Part shown: positions 10,591-56,287 of the stretch, piece by piece
Layout: each line of letters begins with the position of its first letter
How positions within the stretch are numbered: position 1 is the stretch's first letter
Position numbers and translations under genes: made by a program
Source: Desulfovibrio intestinalis
GTDB taxonomy: Bacteria; Desulfobacterota; Desulfovibrionia; Desulfovibrionales; Desulfovibrionaceae
Direction: 5' to 3'
NCBI RefSeq assembly: GCF_014202345.1
Contig: NZ_JACHGO010000007.1
Coordinates: 1-64,000, forward strand
Length of the DNA: 64,000 nt
Notes under the pieces: model-generated
Database searches by the model: none
Told to the model about the DNA's origin: nothing
Seen by the model: only the letters and a program-made list of their open reading frames with translations

Positions 10591-10630
10591 TAAAAAAAGG
10601 GCTGTCCTACATCTAGGACAGCCCTTTTTC
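10591..10630. terminator. intrinsic terminator of the haem-c operon
   Basis: A strong hairpin, AAGGGCTGTCCT and AGGACAGCCCTT around a six-base loop, flanked by A and T runs. It lies 15 bases beyond the stop of the gene at 10645 on the minus strand and can work in both directions. Confidence 0.88.
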
Positions 10631-10644
10631 ATACTCTGAAAGCT

Positions 10645-12234
10645 CTACTTCTCTACCCGGAAGGTATTGCTGATGATGGTCAGATCTTCCAGCACTTCCT
10701 GCGGCAGATGCCGGAATGGCGGCATGACCGTGCCGGGGTAGCCGTTGGTGATAACCTCAAGGGCACGGGCATGGGTCATTGCGAACTTTTGCAAGTCCGG
10801 GGGCGGGGGCAACAGGGTGTGCCCAAACTCCGTGATCTCGCCTGCAACACCGTGGCAGACCGAGCAGGTTTCAGCCCATACAAACATGGCCTCGCCTTCC
10901 GGCTCGCGGTCCGGCGGCACGTCGGCCTTGCCGTACATGTCAAAACGCTTGCCCATCGTATCCAGCACCATTTCAATCTTTTCGCGGTCATACAGGCGGA
11001 AGTAAGGCATACCTGAGCCGGGTACGCCGTCCCGCACGAGGGTGTATACATACTCCCTGTCGGCGCGAATGGCCGCAATATCCTCTGCAGGAATAAGCAG
11101 ACGCGCGGCCACTGGGCCGTCGCCCTTGCCTTCCAGCCCGTGGCAGGGGGCGCAAGCCTGATCGTAAATGGTGTCGCCGTTATCGTACACGGTCTTGAGC
11201 TTGAGGGCGTAAGCATCCAGCGAAGGCTGCCGGAAGGGATCCATAGTCTTGGCCCGCTCTGTACGATAAGCGTCGTTGGCAGCCTGTAGCGGATTGAGGG
11301 ATTCGTCCTGTATGAACTGGCGGCCCACCAGCATGGCCGCGAAGGCCAGAGGCAGCAGCCAGAGCAAACTGCGGGGCGCGGGCAGCGGCACGGGCCGCGG
11401 GGCTGCCTCTGAAGCTGACTGGCGGGGACGCAGCACCCACAAGACCAGCAGGGCGGCCAGCGCGCCCACTGTAAGCGCCGCTACTATGGTCCAGGTGAGT
11501 TCCGCAGCCACAGTAAACAGCAGAGGGATACCTATGAGGATCTGGGCCAGCGTTGCGCCGAAAACCCAGTTGCGCAAGCGCGGGGCTTTTTCCGGATTGT
11601 TGCGGGTTGAGAAAAAGAGCTGAAAAGCCGCGCCAAGCACAAGGGCTGCACCGATGACGTGCAGATAACGCAGCAGCCAGTGCGGGGCCAATGCGGGCAA
11701 TGTGGCAAAATCCTGCCCGCCCGACTGACCGAACTGGGCCCACAGATGCTGGCGTTCCATAAGAGCCAGCGCCCCGGTAAACACGGCAGGCACGGTGAGC
11801 AGCGCTCCCACGCCTATCACGCCGCAGAGCAGCGCCAGCCACGAGCGGCTTTCCATCGAATGGTTAAATCCGTCAATGAGCAGAAAGGCTACGATAAGCA
11901 GGGGTATCACCGCCAGCCAGGCATAGGCGAACAGCCCTGTGGTGGTGAAGAATGAGTAGGAATAACGTATTTGTATGAGCAACAGGGGCGCAATGCCCAA
12001 AACCACGGCCAGACTTTTGAGGCCCAGGTGGGTGTGCATGAATTTGCTGTTCCAGCTCTGCCCCGGCTGGTCGTTGTTCAGCCAGTCTTGCAAAAAAAAC
12101 ACAAGACCCAGCACCGCTGTACCGACGATAAGCAGCGCAAAAAGCAAATGCAGGCCAAAGGTCACAAAGAGCAGGCCATCGAGCCAACCGTCGGACAGGG
12201 GATGCAGGAGGAAGAGGTCAGTCCACTTGTTCAT
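10645..12234 (-). CDS. multi-pass membrane protein with two C-terminal c-type haem domains, bd-oxidase-associated
   Basis: About 529 residues. The start at 12234 (MNKWTDLFLLHP) lies two bases after the upstream stop; the open frame continues into the upstream gene and gives nonsense there. The N-terminal ~350 residues hold about eight to nine hydrophobic helices (for example LLFVTFGLHLLFALLIVGTA), distantly like a cytochrome bd subunit. Two haem-c motifs follow, CAPCH and CSVCH, in domains resembling class I cytochromes c (CHGLEGKGDG; MPPFRHLP with a possible Met ligand). It would pass electrons between periplasmic cytochromes and a membrane haem centre. Exact subunit role is inference. Confidence 0.65.
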   Translation of the reverse strand: MNKWTDLFLLHPLSDGWLDGLLFVTFGLHLLFALLIVGTAVLGLVFFLQDWLNNDQPGQSWNSKFMHTHLGLKSLAVVLGIAPLLLIQIRYSYSFFTTTGLFAYAWLAVIPLLIVAFLLIDGFNHSMESRSWLALLCGVIGVGALLTVPAVFTGALALMERQHLWAQFGQSGGQDFATLPALAPHWLLRYLHVIGAALVLGAAFQLFFSTRNNPEKAPRLRNWVFGATLAQILIGIPLLFTVAAELTWTIVAALTVGALAALLVLWVLRPRQSASEAAPRPVPLPAPRSLLWLLPLAFAAMLVGRQFIQDESLNPLQAANDAYRTERAKTMDPFRQPSLDAYALKLKTVYDNGDTIYDQACAPCHGLEGKGDGPVAARLLIPAEDIAAIRADREYVYTLVRDGVPGSGMPYFRLYDREKIEMVLDTMGKRFDMYGKADVPPDREPEGEAMFVWAETCSVCHGVAGEITEFGHTLLPPPPDLQKFAMTHARALEVITNGYPGTVMPPFRHLPQEVLEDLTIISNTFRVEK

Positions 12235-12236
12235 GG

Positions 12237-13628
12237 CTACTTCGCCTCCCTGCCCGCTGCATGGGCTGCCGGAGTTTTCGGCGCCTGCGGGATCTTGATA
12301 TAACCCTGCTCTGTTCCGAGCATATAGATATAGTTGGCCAGCAGCAGGCGCTCCGATTCCGATCCGGTAAAGGGCGTCATGAAGGGACCGAGGTTTTCCG
12401 TGATGTCCACAATGGCATTGAGGCTGTCCAGCGTACGCCCGGCCACGCGAATGCCGATATTGTTCAGTCCGCCTTTGACCGTGGTGTGGCACACCCCGCA
12501 ATTGGCGGCAAACAGGGCCTGCCCTGCCACCATATCAGGCGGCAGCTTGCCGCTGTCATCAACCCAGCGCATGCGCGGCAGATAATTCTCGTTCTTTTCA
12601 TCAAGGGCCAGCTTTTCCACCAGCGGCACCTGATTGGCGTACATATAGCCGGGCAGCAGATACGGCCCGCGCACAAATTCGCGAATGCGCTCAAATTCCA
12701 TAACCATAAATACGCACAGCAGAATGGCCGGAATGCAGAGAATGCGGCTTATAATGGGCCAGCGCAGTACAGCGACCAGCCCCGTGAGGCAAAGCACCCC
12801 GACACCCACGGCATTAAGGGTGGGCAAAAAGTCCGGCAGTTGCGACATGTAGGAGGTGGCGACCGCGAACTTCCAGTGGGTCAGATAGGTCATTGGAATG
12901 CGGGAGAAGTAAACCCACGCGCTGACCCCGGCCACGGCCACACAGCCCAGAAACACACCGCCAGCCAGCCGCAGGGCGCTGCCGCGCTCCTGCTGCGTGC
13001 CTTTGAAGCGCCAGGCAATCCAGGCCGCAAGCAACAATGAGCCAATGCCCAGCCCCGCCGCCAGCCGCAGAAACACCTGGGGCACAAAGGTGGGGTTGTA
13101 GTAAGCCTGATCGAAAGTCTGCCCCCAGGGCCAGCCGGCAGGCGTGAGCATAAAGCCCAGAATGCCCGAGATTAGGATGGCCGAAATGACGGCCATGACC
13201 ACATAGCCCCAGCCAAGGGCGGTCAGGCGGCCCGGGTGCTTTTCCGCCAGTTTGTCCCACAGGTAGTAGTAAAAAAGCAGCAGAATGACTTCTGAGGTAA
13301 AGGCTCCCCACTCAATGAACCAGGGCCAGAAAAAGAGGTGGATGAGTGAGCCGATGCCCTCAGGCGCAAGAATGCCCGTGATAAACCAGATGCCCACGCC
13401 CGTCACCGCACCCACGGAAGTGATAACCACCACCACAGGCCCCAGCAAGCTGCGGGTTATGCGTGCCCAGTGCGGCCCCTTGCCCATATACGTCAGGGTT
13501 TGAAAAAGAATGAGCATGGTCATGAGGCCAATGGCCAGACCGTGACTTATGACGACATGCAACACGGCGTCCAGCGCGATGGTCATGCCATCGCCGAGAC
13601 CCGGTATGTGCAATATGGGAAAAATCAT
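12237..13628 (-). CDS. cytochrome bd subunit I-like membrane protein with fused c-type haem
   Basis: About 463 residues with some nine hydrophobic segments. An early helix has His24 and His29 (AVLHVVISHG). The stretch IGSLIHLFFWPWFIEWGAFTSEVILLLFYYYLWDKL-like region (cut here into its key residues Glu106, Glu113 and the closing LWDKL) recalls the Glu-rich helix of CydA. A single CGVCH motif (Cys377, Cys380, His381) near the C-terminus marks a fused cytochrome c domain. Members of the bd superfamily with fused haem c are thought to use cytochrome c rather than quinol. Flanked by the TsdA-like gene and the dihaem partner with two-base gaps, so the three are one transcript. Confidence 0.65.
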   Translation of the reverse strand: MIFPILHIPGLGDGMTIALDAVLHVVISHGLAIGLMTMLILFQTLTYMGKGPHWARITRSLLGPVVVVITSVGAVTGVGIWFITGILAPEGIGSLIHLFFWPWFIEWGAFTSEVILLLFYYYLWDKLAEKHPGRLTALGWGYVVMAVISAILISGILGFMLTPAGWPWGQTFDQAYYNPTFVPQVFLRLAAGLGIGSLLLAAWIAWRFKGTQQERGSALRLAGGVFLGCVAVAGVSAWVYFSRIPMTYLTHWKFAVATSYMSQLPDFLPTLNAVGVGVLCLTGLVAVLRWPIISRILCIPAILLCVFMVMEFERIREFVRGPYLLPGYMYANQVPLVEKLALDEKNENYLPRMRWVDDSGKLPPDMVAGQALFAANCGVCHTTVKGGLNNIGIRVAGRTLDSLNAIVDITENLGPFMTPFTGSESERLLLANYIYMLGTEQGYIKIPQAPKTPAAHAAGREAK

Positions 13629-13630
13629 GG

Positions 13631-14512
13631 CTACTTCCCTTCCGTCAGGGGGATGAGCCGCTCGATCTTGTCAGGATGCGTGGGCACGAACTTGGGCCGG
13701 GGCTGTTCGTGTATGTAGCCCGCCACGTCCAGCGCCTCTTCCTGCGTAAGGGAAGGCGCGTTCTTGGGCATAAAGCGCCATGCGAATATGGACAGGGTAC
13801 GCACCCGGTGCATGCCTGCGCCGTCGTTGTACGAATCGTCGCCCCACACGGGCGGGGCAATGTCTGTGCCTTCGCCGTTGGGGCCGTGGCAGCGGGCGCA
13901 CACGTCCTTATAGACTTTTTCACCGTTGGCAGCATCGGGCTTGTGGGGATTGTCCATACTTTCGGGAATGGCCCAGGGCAGTTTGGCGTATATGGGAATA
14001 TCCTTGGATATCCATTGCAGATAGACCAGCAGAGACTGGATGATCTGTCCGTCCAGCGGCGGCGGCGTTCCGTTCATGCTACGGTCAAAACAGCCCTGAA
14101 TGCGAATGCCGAGGTCTACAGTATATTCATTGCGGTCACGGTAACGCGGATAGGTGGCCCCTACCCCTACCAGCGAGAAGCTCTCCATAGACCTGCCGCC
14201 TTCAAAATGGCAGCTGGAACAGGAGAGTTTGCTGTCTTTGCTGACGTATTCCCCGGCGTACTTGCTGGTTTCCGTCATGATCTTGTAGCCCAGCATAACT
14301 TCGGCCCGGATGCTTTCCGGCGCGTCTTCGGGTCGCGGCGGGTTGAACAGGGCTTGCGCCGCTGGCACGGCCACCCTTTTGGCCGCCGCTTCGGAGTCCA
14401 TAGCCACCCGCTTGATGGTGAGCGTTGAACCGAAGAAAGAGAGCACCCACACACCAAAGACAAGCAATATGGCCGCCAGAGCAAGGCCCAGATATACGCC
14501 ACGGTTTTTCAT
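13631..14512 (-). CDS. dihaem cytochrome c, thiosulfate dehydrogenase (TsdA)-like, membrane-anchored
   Basis: About 293 residues with an uncleaved-looking N-terminal helix (LALAAILLVFGVWVLSFFG). Two haem-c motifs are present: CSSCH (Cys98-His102) and CARCH (Cys205-His209). Between them lies RIQGCFDRSMNG, and in TsdA enzymes the Cys of this motif (here Cys141) is an axial ligand of the active-site haem. TsdA oxidises thiosulfate to tetrathionate or runs the reverse reaction. It is the first gene of the haem-c operon and could feed electrons to, or draw them from, the two bd-like membrane subunits. Substrate is inferred. Confidence 0.7.
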   Translation of the reverse strand: MKNRGVYLGLALAAILLVFGVWVLSFFGSTLTIKRVAMDSEAAAKRVAVPAAQALFNPPRPEDAPESIRAEVMLGYKIMTETSKYAGEYVSKDSKLSCSSCHFEGGRSMESFSLVGVGATYPRYRDRNEYTVDLGIRIQGCFDRSMNGTPPPLDGQIIQSLLVYLQWISKDIPIYAKLPWAIPESMDNPHKPDAANGEKVYKDVCARCHGPNGEGTDIAPPVWGDDSYNDGAGMHRVRTLSIFAWRFMPKNAPSLTQEEALDVAGYIHEQPRPKFVPTHPDKIERLIPLTEGK

Positions 14513-14870
14513 GACAACTCCTGCAGGGGCACGATTCAGCCCGCCCCGGTATGTATGAACTCAATACTTTGTAATTTAGTATGAATATGTTCTCACCCCG
14601 AATGCAGGCTTAATGAGAAATATTCAGTGTATGAATTTCAAAAATACAGAACATTGTCAACAGCACTTCAAAAAAAACGCTATATTTTCGTATAGCTGTA
14701 AACAATATTTATAAAGAAAGAACAGAGGTGCAATGCGGTGCATGAATATTGTTGCATATATATGTTGCAGCAAGCAAATATGGCGGTTTGGGGAACGCCT
14801 GGGCGGCGGGGAATTGGTTGCCGCGTGTAGCGCGAGGCTGGAGAGAGGGGCGTTGCGTTCGTGAAGTGAT
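14513..14870. other. AT-rich upstream region of the haem-c operon
   Basis: No gene is supported. On the minus strand a TTGACA hexamer (14655-14660) could be a -35 element but no convincing -10 follows. The AT-rich stretch 14560-14760 probably holds the operon's promoter. Confidence 0.4.
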
Positions 14871-15935
14871 TCGTGCCCTGCGGGCACGGAGGGTTTTCCA
14901 CGTATGTTGGTTGGCCGCCTGCGCGGCGCGTGGCAAGGTGGGAGTGGCTGCGGGCGCATAGAAGAATGGCGTCGCTTTTATGAAACCATTTGTACCCTGC
15001 GGATACGACGTCTTTCCTTCTCTTTATTTCTGCCGCCTGCGCGGCGTGCGGCAGAAGGGGCCTGTTAGGGGCTGCCGCCCCTTCGAGGCCCCCTCTGCAC
15101 TCCCCCCGAACAACCCCGCTGGGCTTTCGTATCTCTCCACTCCCACGGGGTAGCCTTCAAGGGCTTTCCAAATTCTATCATTTCCCGAGGGCTGCGCGGC
15201 TTTTACTTCGGGAGCTTCCTCGCTTCGCTCGGCGATCTCCCTTCGCACCGCGCAATGCCATCGGGCGCTTTCGCGTTGCATATCAGCTTTGAGCATCTGG
15301 ACGCTTGGGGTTGATGTTGCAAGCTGAGAGAAGAGGCCAATAATGTTTATTGCGTAAAGAATGACCTCGGCACGCGCTGTTTCTCAGACAAGGAACAGGC
15401 CATTGCCGGGGGCGGCGTCATAAAGAACCGAAGCCGACACGTCGGCGAGGTTCGTGCGTAGCCGCTCCCCCAAAAGATACTTGGCGGTCGAGGTCGAACA
15501 GGGGGTGCTTCGGGGGGATGCAAGGGGGGCCCAAACAACATAAGCAAAAAGCCCCCGTGCCCGCAGGGCACAACACGCGTATCTCAATGGCTAGCCCCAA
15601 ACTTTCGTGCCACGCCAATCAGACGCTCCAGTCCCCCCATACAACGCCAAAGCGCCCTATGGCATTGCGCGGCGCGTAGGGAGATCGCCCGACCAAGGGG
15701 AGGGAAGCTCCCGCAGCAATCGCCGCGCAGCCCTCGAAGAATGGTGGAATTGGGAAAGCCCTTGAAGGCTCACTCGTAGAAATGGAGATATATGGAAAAC
15801 CCAGCGGGGTCGTCCGGGGGGAGTGCAGAGGGGGACTCGGAGGGGCGGCAGCCCCTAACAGGCCCCCTCGCCGCCCGCTGCATAGGCGGCCCAAACAACA
15901 TAAGCAAAAAAGCCCCCGTGCCCGCAGGGCACAAA
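14871..15935. repeat. cluster of repeat family A copies (two near full length, two fragments)
   Basis: Fragment at 14871-14960 (minus orientation), near-full copy at 14990-15285 (minus), right-end fragment at 15527-15575 (plus) and near-full copy at 15640-15935 (plus). Marks of the family are a left block TGGCATTGCGCGGCGCG, an inner block CCCTTGAAGGCT, a GGGGAGTGCAGAGGG block, a hairpin-rich core GGGGCGGCAGCCCC and a right-end palindrome GTGCCCGCAGGGCAC. Reading frames are not conserved: the 15640 copy has a TAG after six codons. The region is therefore treated as non-coding. Confidence 0.8.
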
Positions 15936-25386: not shown

Positions 25387-25539
25387 ATGGCTAACGCCAC
25401 AAGGAGAACTATGAAATGTAAGGCAGCGTCAGCATGTTCTAGAGCCTATTGCCCTTGAGGCAAGATGCCCTCAACGGTGTCATCCTGACCGAAGATGCAA
25501 TGATTGCGAAATTCGCGCTGCGTGCACTCTCGCACAACG

Positions 25540-25765
25540 TCAAAGCTTGCCCGGTGATGGCATTGCGCGGCGCGCAGGGAGATCCCCCGACCAAAGGGAG
25601 GGAAGCTCCCAAAGCAAAAGCCACGCAGCCCTCGTGAATTGGCGGAAGGTGGAAGACCCAGCGGGGTTGTCCGGGGGAGTGCAGAGGGAGCCTCGGAAGG
25701 GCAGCAGTCCCCTAACAGGCCCCCTCTGCCGCACGCCGCACAGGCGACCCAAATGGAACACTGCC
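25540..25765 (+). repeat. repeat family A, truncated copy
   Basis: Contains the left block TGGCATTGCGCGGCGCGCAG, GGGAGGGAAGCTCCC, CCCAGCGGGGTTGTCCGGGG and the CCCCTAACAGGCCCC core. The right-end GTGCCCGCAGGGCAC palindrome is missing, and the middle (the CCCTTGAAGGCT block) is deleted. Confidence 0.75.
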
Positions 25766-55365: not shown

Positions 55366-56287
55366 TATTAATGCCCTGCGGGTACGATGGCTTTTCTTCT
55401 CTTTAGTTCTGCCGCACGCCGCGCAGGCGGCCCAAATAACAGAATCTGAAAAGCCTCCGTGCCCGCAGGGCACAACACATTTCTCCCAAAGACCAACCCC
55501 CAACTTTTGCGACAACCAAGCCCCAAGAGCCCATATCCCTCAAAAACTGGCACACAACGCGAAAGCGCTCGATGGCATTGCGCGGCGCGCAGGGAGATCA
55601 CCCGACCAAGGGGAGGGAAGCTCCCGCAGCAATAGCCGCGCAGCCCTCGCGAAATGGTGGAATTGGGAAAGCCCTTGAAGGCTCACCCGTGGAAATAAAG
55701 ATATATGGAAAACCCAGCGGGGTCGTCCGGGGGGAGTGCAGAGGGGGCCTCGGAGGGGCGGCAGCCCCTAACAGGCCCCCTCGCCGCCCGCTGCGAAAGC
55801 GGCCCAAACAGCATAGACAAAGAAGCCTCAGTGCCCGCAGGGCATATCCTTCCCCGCAAAAGCAGTTTTATTCTTCCTCACCCGCTTGCCGGATAACCCC
55901 GCCCCACAAGCACAACGCTCTCCTTTCAAAGACCAAATTCTGAATTCTCACGATTACCCCCCAAGCGTCCAGACTACCCCAAAACTGACACGCCACGCGA
56001 AAGACCACGATGGCATTGCGCGGCGCGCAGGGAGATCACCCGACCAAGGGGAGGGAAGCTCCCGCAGCAATAGCCGCACAACCCTCGCAAAATTATGGAA
56101 TTGGGAAAGCCCTTGAAGGCTCACGCGTAGAAATGGAGATATATGGAAAACCCAGCGGGGTCGTCCGGGGGGAGTGCAGAGGGGGCCTCGGAGGGGCGGC
56201 AGCCCCTAACAGGTCCCCTCGCCGCCCGCTGCGAAAGCGGCCCAAACAAAAGGAACGGGAAAGCCTCAGTGCCCGCAGGGCACGACT
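55366..56287 (+). repeat. repeat family A: fold-back fragment and two near-full tandem copies
   Basis: Fragment at 55366-55475 combines an inverted right end (GCCCTGCGGGTACGATGG) with a direct right end (CCTCCGTGCCCGCAGGGCAC). Near-full copies lie at 55560-55850 and 55995-56287; they are nearly identical in their cores, differing at scattered positions. Both carry an open frame of ~100 codons beginning MALRGAQGD, but the 15640 copy has an early stop and the copy at 14990 shifts frame. No ribosome site precedes the ATG. Confidence 0.8.

Follow-up and report, generated by a model that had tools for sequence, protein, structure and literature searches.

The window analysed here comprises the first 64,000 nucleotides of contig 7 (NZ_JACHGO010000007.1) of Desulfovibrio intestinalis, whose genome is 3.44 Mb and 99.97% complete. 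Between positions 14512 and 10645, on the minus strand, it contains an operon of three genes in the order P1-P2-P3, in which a TsdA-like dihaem cytochrome is encoded together with two membrane subunits of the cytochrome bd type; the operon recurs in other genomes and is referred to as the module. Both intergenic gaps are exactly 2 bases, and five CxxCH motifs are present, at residues 98 and 205 of P1, 377 of P2, and 361 and 457 of P3; the open reading frames and motif positions thus confirm the layout given in an original prediction that was made from the sequence alone. The start of P3 is taken as the ATG at 12234, and the listed open reading frame opens further upstream at a TTG.

13631–14512, minus strand: P1, tsdA-like, 293 aa, N-terminal membrane anchor and two cytochrome c domains (phmmer; PF21342 SoxA-TsdA above cut-off)
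12237–13628, minus strand: P2, CydA-like, 463 aa, bd-type transmembrane (TM) core (residues 1–329) and C-terminal monohaem c domain (phmmer to 5doq_A, VIA, hhalign)
10645–12234, minus strand: P3, second bd-fold subunit, 529 aa, TM domain (residues 1–321) and two C-terminal cytochrome c domains (VIA; PF13442 twice)

P1 shows similarity to TsdA of Allochromatium vinosum (4wq7; phmmer E=4e-33 over P1 residues 69–276) and to the TsdBA fusion of Marichromatium purpuratum (5lo9; E=1e-32). Residues 93–174 are recognized by PF21342 (SoxA-TsdA) with 40.4 bits at a cut-off of 27, and residues 193–268 by PF13442/PF00034. The motif RIQGCFDRSMNG, which had been taken as the TsdA hallmark, is located at residues 137–148, and the cysteine within it aligns with the catalytic cysteine of TsdA, so the assignment of the first gene holds.

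14441–14497, minus strand: single N-terminal TM segment of P1, residues 6–24, membrane anchor (hydropathy)
14207–14221, minus strand: haem 1 of P1, CSSCH (residues 98–102), catalytic haem, aligned with CRHCH49–53 of A. vinosum (motif and alignment)
14090–14092, minus strand: Cys141 of P1, corresponding to the catalytic haem ligand Cys96 of mature A. vinosum TsdA, Cys123 in the precursor (alignment)
13886–13900, minus strand: haem 2 of P1, CARCH (residues 205–209) (motif)
13769–13771, minus strand: Met248 of P1, haem 2 ligand, corresponding to Met209 in A. vinosum and Met255 in Campylobacter jejuni (alignment)

Cys141 is invariant among the 26 module TsdAs tabulated, and so is Met248, whose counterpart is strictly conserved in TsdA (PMC5146829). 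The residue preceding Met248 is Phe in P1, while A. vinosum has a switching Lys and C. jejuni an Asn at this place (PMC5146829). The substrate-binding residues of TsdA are, in A. vinosum precursor numbering, Arg109, Arg119, Ser127 and Arg224, with Cys123 as the haem ligand (PMC4423706), and all four have counterparts in P1, namely R127, R137, S145 and R236. Judged from its sequence, P1 is a membrane-anchored TsdA with every checked catalytic residue kept. The window TsdA and 20 others from the tabulated modules retain most or all of the four substrate-binding residues. In a subclade of five (L034, L035, L038, L065 and L066), to which the metagenome-assembled genome (MAG) named Desulfovibrio desulfuricans SZUA-457 belongs, these are replaced by S/N, K, N and D/N respectively, with Cys141 and Met248 kept, the operon retained and a long TsdA branch of 0.86; here P1 probably acts on a different substrate or has been reduced from catalysis to electron transfer.

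P2 matches CydA of Geobacillus (5doq_A) in phmmer with E=8e-7, and its profile aligns with that of canonical CydA over the N-terminal half (hhalign E=7.6e-7). When its AlphaFold2 (AF2) model was compared with ten bd structures, VIA gave Z scores of 24.1–26.4 over about 300 residues, and the next group, the membrane subunits of alternative complex III (ACIII) and PsrC, reached 16–18.6. The membrane parts of P2 and P3 were not recognized in the Pfam and NCBIfam scans, and a PF01654 (Cyt_bd_oxida_I) profile search of the host genome missed P2 itself. This is not counted against a bd kinship since P2 of three close relatives in the genus exceeds the PF01654 cut-off (E 1e-15 to 1e-18), 5doq is matched directly and the fold agrees. 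Conservation was assessed in 69 sequences, 34 from the module and 35 from other relatives; among them H24, E106, E113, E313, R316, E317, R320, the CxxCH motif and Met417 are 97–100% conserved.

13557–13559, minus strand: His24 of P2, equivalent to His19 of Escherichia coli CydA (100% in the 34 + 35 relatives)
13290–13313, minus strand: Glu106 and Glu113 of P2, equivalent to Glu99 and Glu107 (profile alignment, conservation)
12690–12692, minus strand: Glu313 of P2, equivalent to Glu445, followed by the conserved R316, E317, R320, G, P and Y (VIA end-point offsets 132–133; 97/100% conserved)
12486–12500, minus strand: haem c of P2, CGVCH (residues 377–381), axial Met417 (motif, conservation)

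Sequence alignment gave the equivalents of His19, Glu99 and Glu107, and the equivalent of Glu445 was placed from the end points of the structural superposition; the R316/E317/R320 stretch is the counterpart of the GRQPW region in E. coli CydA. The b558 ligand His186 is absent, Leu187/Arg188 being aligned at that place, and the Q loop is missing, with only about 23 residues between the model helices 212–243 and 267–287 (TM6–TM7). The conserved active-site residues, the replaced His186 and the short loop indicate that P2 is a bd-type subunit I in which the catalytic two-haem core is kept, with its bd active-site ligands, and the quinol entrance is gone.

The model of the TM part of P3 also has a bd-type fold, with VIA Z scores of 22.9–25.4 to CydA and CydB chains and lower values of 16–18.6 to ACIII/PsrC. 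An hhalign comparison with canonical CydA gave nothing useful, so it is the predicted fold that suggests a bd kinship of P3, and the E-value of P2 against P3 was set aside because the c domains were partly aligned to each other. The acidic O2-site residues (Glu99/Glu107/Glu445) were not found in P3, and no Glu is conserved across 67 relatives; E160 is conserved in module members only. The conserved residues, shared by nearly all of the 67, are H29, W165, R189, H192, G235, M301 and R305.

12148–12150, minus strand: His29 of P3 (TM1), invariant in 67 relatives (conservation)
11659–11661, minus strand: His192 of P3 (TM5), in a position resembling the b558 ligand His186, invariant in 67 relatives (conservation)
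11140–11154, minus strand: haem c of P3, CAPCH (residues 361–365), axial Met409 (motif)
10852–10866, minus strand: haem c of P3, CSVCH (residues 457–461), axial Met504 (motif)

P3 may possibly bind a b-type haem at H29 or H192. The earlier description of two bd-like subunits with c domains thus stands as far as the fold is concerned, but the two are unequal, the O2-site residues being confined to P2 and P3 having other invariant His residues. The single c domain of P2 and both of those in P3 are His/Met-ligated, which is typical of higher-potential haems, and together with the missing His186 equivalent and Q loop of P2 they support the predicted route through haem c rather than quinol.

The trio recurs with its gene order unchanged at 33 of 35 loci (a count that includes a few cases of one genome seen twice), with neighbouring genes a few bases apart or overlapping to that extent, indicating that the gene arrangement is not due to chance. 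The exceptions are L071, a Zixibacteria MAG without an adjacent TsdA and with a broken P3, and L078, which has a TsdA remnant only. Relatives of P2, contained in 70 of 119 family genomes, fall into two groups, ten at about 60–100% identity, all with TsdA directly upstream and a c-domain P3 downstream, and the remainder near 30%; the closest named relatives are Desulfovibrio MAGs (P2 92–95% identical). Ten of the 11 full-length TsdAs in these 119 genomes are located within the trio operon. When 84,980 species genomes were scanned, 21 loci were recovered, and TsdA adjoins 19 of them (in one case truncated at a contig end); they lie in Desulfovibrio, Bilophila, Desulfogranum japonicum, Desulfocapsa, Nitrospirae, a Bacteroidetes-labelled MAG and others, and a phylum-wide search added four. 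The distance matrices of P1, P2 and P3 are correlated with r = 0.87–0.96 over 30 operons, a level reached by 0 of 2000 permutations. Module P2 forms one clade with a Shimodaira–Hasegawa-like approximate likelihood ratio test (SH-aLRT) support of 96 and a long stem of 1.24 (L050, a long artefact branch, is disregarded), and module TsdA forms one clade against plasmid and TsdBA-type TsdAs (SH-aLRT 98). From these trees the module is of single origin and old. No relative was found in viral contigs, and the trio was present in none of the plasmid TsdA and bare-core regions that were opened.

The P2+P3 core without TsdA is far commoner than the trio and occurs as an eight-haem fusion, with separate 7–10-haem cytochromes, or alone, also on plasmids of Agrobacterium, Thermus and Methylosinus. 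The arrangement had been called unusual, which is true of the stable union with TsdA but not of the haem-c bd core lacking a quinol site, given its presence in 70 of the 119 family genomes and on plasmids of unrelated bacteria.

An OR-C family of the cytochrome bd superfamily is reportedly due to Murali, Gennis and Hemp in 2021, and its criterion (bd core, haem c, no quinol site) is used here as it stands in secondary sources. In PMC10839748 and PMC13189123 the superfamily is split into qOR, OR-C and OR-N, the quinol-site enzymes being qOR and the proposed donor of OR-N being cytochrome c. Compared by description, the predicted P2+P3 core fits OR-C, with haem c present and the quinol site absent. 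In cable bacteria, which are without TsdA (PMC13293266), a CydA homologue bearing a cytochrome c domain on the periplasmic side has been proposed as an oxygen reductase (PMC13047784). Like OR-C, it shares with the module a bd-type core that lacks the quinol site and has its own haem c; the trio differs from these relatives in the two c domains added to P3 and in the TsdA of the operon, while other relatives of the core have a P3 without c haem and are accompanied by multihaem cytochromes or by no extra partner. Canonical CydAB (qOR) resembles P2 in fold and active-site residues, whereas P2 has no His186 equivalent, no Q loop and an added haem c domain. The OR-N enzyme CydAA' of Nitrospinota/Nitrospira (PMC10839748) is, by description, similar in its two CydA-like subunits and the proposed cytochrome c donor, but it counts as a family separate from OR-C. 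With the known TsdAs (A. vinosum 4wq7, C. jejuni, TsdBA 5lo9) P1 shares the two-haem layout, the Cys-ligated haem, the substrate Arg/Ser residues and the Met of haem 2, and it differs in being membrane-anchored, in the Phe instead of Lys/Asn before Met248, and in being encoded with two bd-like membrane subunits rather than acting with TsdB or a soluble acceptor. No account of a TsdA joined to a bd-like core was found in the open literature, most subscription journals lying outside the search; it is this union that appears to be new, and the haem-c bd core without a quinol site is already known.

We propose, with a probability of about 0.5, that the operon encodes a membrane-bound, periplasm-facing thiosulfate:dioxygen oxidoreductase that is linked to cytochrome c instead of quinol. 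The three proteins would form a physical complex, in which P1 would couple two thiosulfates into tetrathionate at the Cys-ligated haem 1. The electrons should leave P1 through the His/Met-ligated haem 2, pass the two c haems of P3 and then, in this presumed order, the c haem of P2, and reach the two-haem bd-type site in the TM core of P2, where O2 would be reduced to water. The Glu107-type residue suggests that protons would be drawn from the cytoplasm by a path of that type, in which case the reaction would be electrogenic and the charge separation could conserve energy. The loss of the quinol loop and of the b558 ligand may have come about because the donor is cytochrome c. Menaquinone lies at about -75 mV, and no haem-copper oxidase was found in the host genome. 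For thiosulfate/tetrathionate a midpoint of +198 mV is given in PMC9562282. This is too high to feed menaquinone readily, which makes a cytochrome-c-driven oxidase the logical outlet, and with no haem-copper oxidase at hand a c-fed bd site would be the fitting one. That sulfate reducers can oxidise inorganic sulfur compounds with O2 has been reported (Dannenberg 1992, as cited in PMC11451228). The wider claim, that TsdA, a c-fed bd oxygen site and a built-in wire of three c haems make up one complex, a dedicated energy-conserving thiosulfate:O2 oxidoreductase in several phyla of mostly anaerobic sulfur bacteria, is tentative and falls slightly short of an even chance.

Several points weigh against the proposed thiosulfate:O2 oxidoreductase. 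The hosts are mostly anaerobes, and D. intestinalis already has CydAB, an ordinary CydA being encoded separately, at contig position 215 kb, with CydB adjoining. No demonstrated activity for any OR-C enzyme was found in the accessible literature, and the confidence of the P2 model is moderate (mean predicted local distance difference test score, pLDDT, 69.5). Some modules may use a substrate other than thiosulfate, since the residues that bind thiosulfate are lost in the five-member subclade. Finally, TsdA works in both directions (PMC5146829), so the direction cannot be read from the sequence.

This reversibility leads to the main rival, in which P2/P3 would oxidise menaquinol and the c haems would pass the electrons to P1 for reduction of tetrathionate to thiosulfate, i.e. 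a quinol:tetrathionate reductase serving anaerobic respiration. In vivo, tetrathionate is respired by the TsdA of C. jejuni, which resembles P1 in having a Met but no Lys at haem 2 (PMC5146829). The module occurs in sulfur-respiring anaerobes, there is also a fold kinship with the quinol-handling ACIII/PsrC subunits (Z 16–18), and the conserved His29, His192, Arg189 and Arg305 of P3 could serve a b haem or a quinol site. However, the near-invariant equivalents of His19, Glu99, Glu107 and Glu445 are not needed for such a role, and the known quinol site, with its Q loop and His186, is missing from P2, and we therefore regard this reading as unlikely.

Somewhat less likely again is that P1 acts on another sulfur compound (e.g. 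polysulfide, sulfite plus persulfide, or a thiol) and that the complex is an O2 defence using that donor; the replaced R127, R137, S145 and R236 beside the retained Cys141 and Met248 in the long-branched subclade would agree with it, but not the 21 TsdAs, that of the window among them, that keep most or all of these residues. That the bd-like core reduces nitric oxide or peroxide instead of O2, with TsdA as the electron source, is improbable: canonical cytochrome bd also reacts with both, the acceptor is proven for no OR-C enzyme and the conserved core residues are compatible, but the conserved equivalents of Glu99, Glu107 and Glu445 belong to the site at which O2 is reduced.

Two further elements flank the operon.

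10592–10629, unstranded: terminator-like bidirectional perfect inverted repeat GGGCTGTCCTA-CATC-TAGGACAGCCC with A and T runs, directly after the P3 stop (read by eye)
14622–14660, minus strand: conserved block 5' of P1, TTGACA (14655–14660) and the near-palindrome ATTCATACACTGAAT (14622–14636) (three-way alignment with L062 and L063)

The upstream block is common to the window and these two close relatives. A pattern scan for promoters and terminators performed no better than on shuffled sequence, and the repeat at 10592–10629 falls outside the rules of that scan. An intergenic repeat family of about 250 bp is located at window positions 15000–15300, 15639–15898, 25535–25754 and 55555–56263, with copies 72–91% identical and 48 matching places genome-wide, about half of them longer than 200 bases; two copies in inverted orientation are found just upstream of the tsdA operon.

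Other neighbourhoods were also seen. L133 and L134 carry, about 700 bp downstream of the module, a second TsdA-like gene of 636 aa with four CxxCH motifs (TsdBA-like), which fits thiosulfate/tetrathionate chemistry in either direction. In most Desulfovibrionaceae (L041–L061) the commoner P2 relative is a CydA-like core with one haem c fused to a multihaem cytochrome, with eight CxxCH motifs in all and open frames of 820–980 aa, and its partner is a 350-aa P3-like gene without haem c; the fusion is a candidate multihaem-fed bd-type reductase. On the Agrobacterium and Methylosinus plasmids (L175, L177) the bare P2+P3-like pair adjoins, in similar order, a histidine-kinase-like ATP-binding protein and a response regulator. 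The Blastomonas fulva plasmid NZ_CP020084.1 has a TsdA homologue near a cytochrome c, a group II truncated haemoglobin and canonical cydX/cydB, and is an independent TsdA/cytochrome bd neighbourhood.

Genome-based predictions already include bd-type enzymes that lack a quinol site, and here a donor enzyme of known chemistry is locked to one, so that donor and acceptor can both be assayed. If the proposed thiosulfate:O2 oxidoreductase is correct, the operon would offer candidate genes for the O2-dependent oxidation of thiosulfate in sulfate reducers and a direct thiosulfate-to-oxygen pathway in 'strict anaerobes', and, having a known inorganic donor built in, the enzyme would be a bd-type oxidase that bypasses quinol. 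This would explain how an organism that uses menaquinone and lacks a haem-copper oxidase could exploit a donor at +198 mV. The Desulfovibrio and Bilophila relatives put the module in the gut besides sediments, where thiosulfate meets traces of O2.

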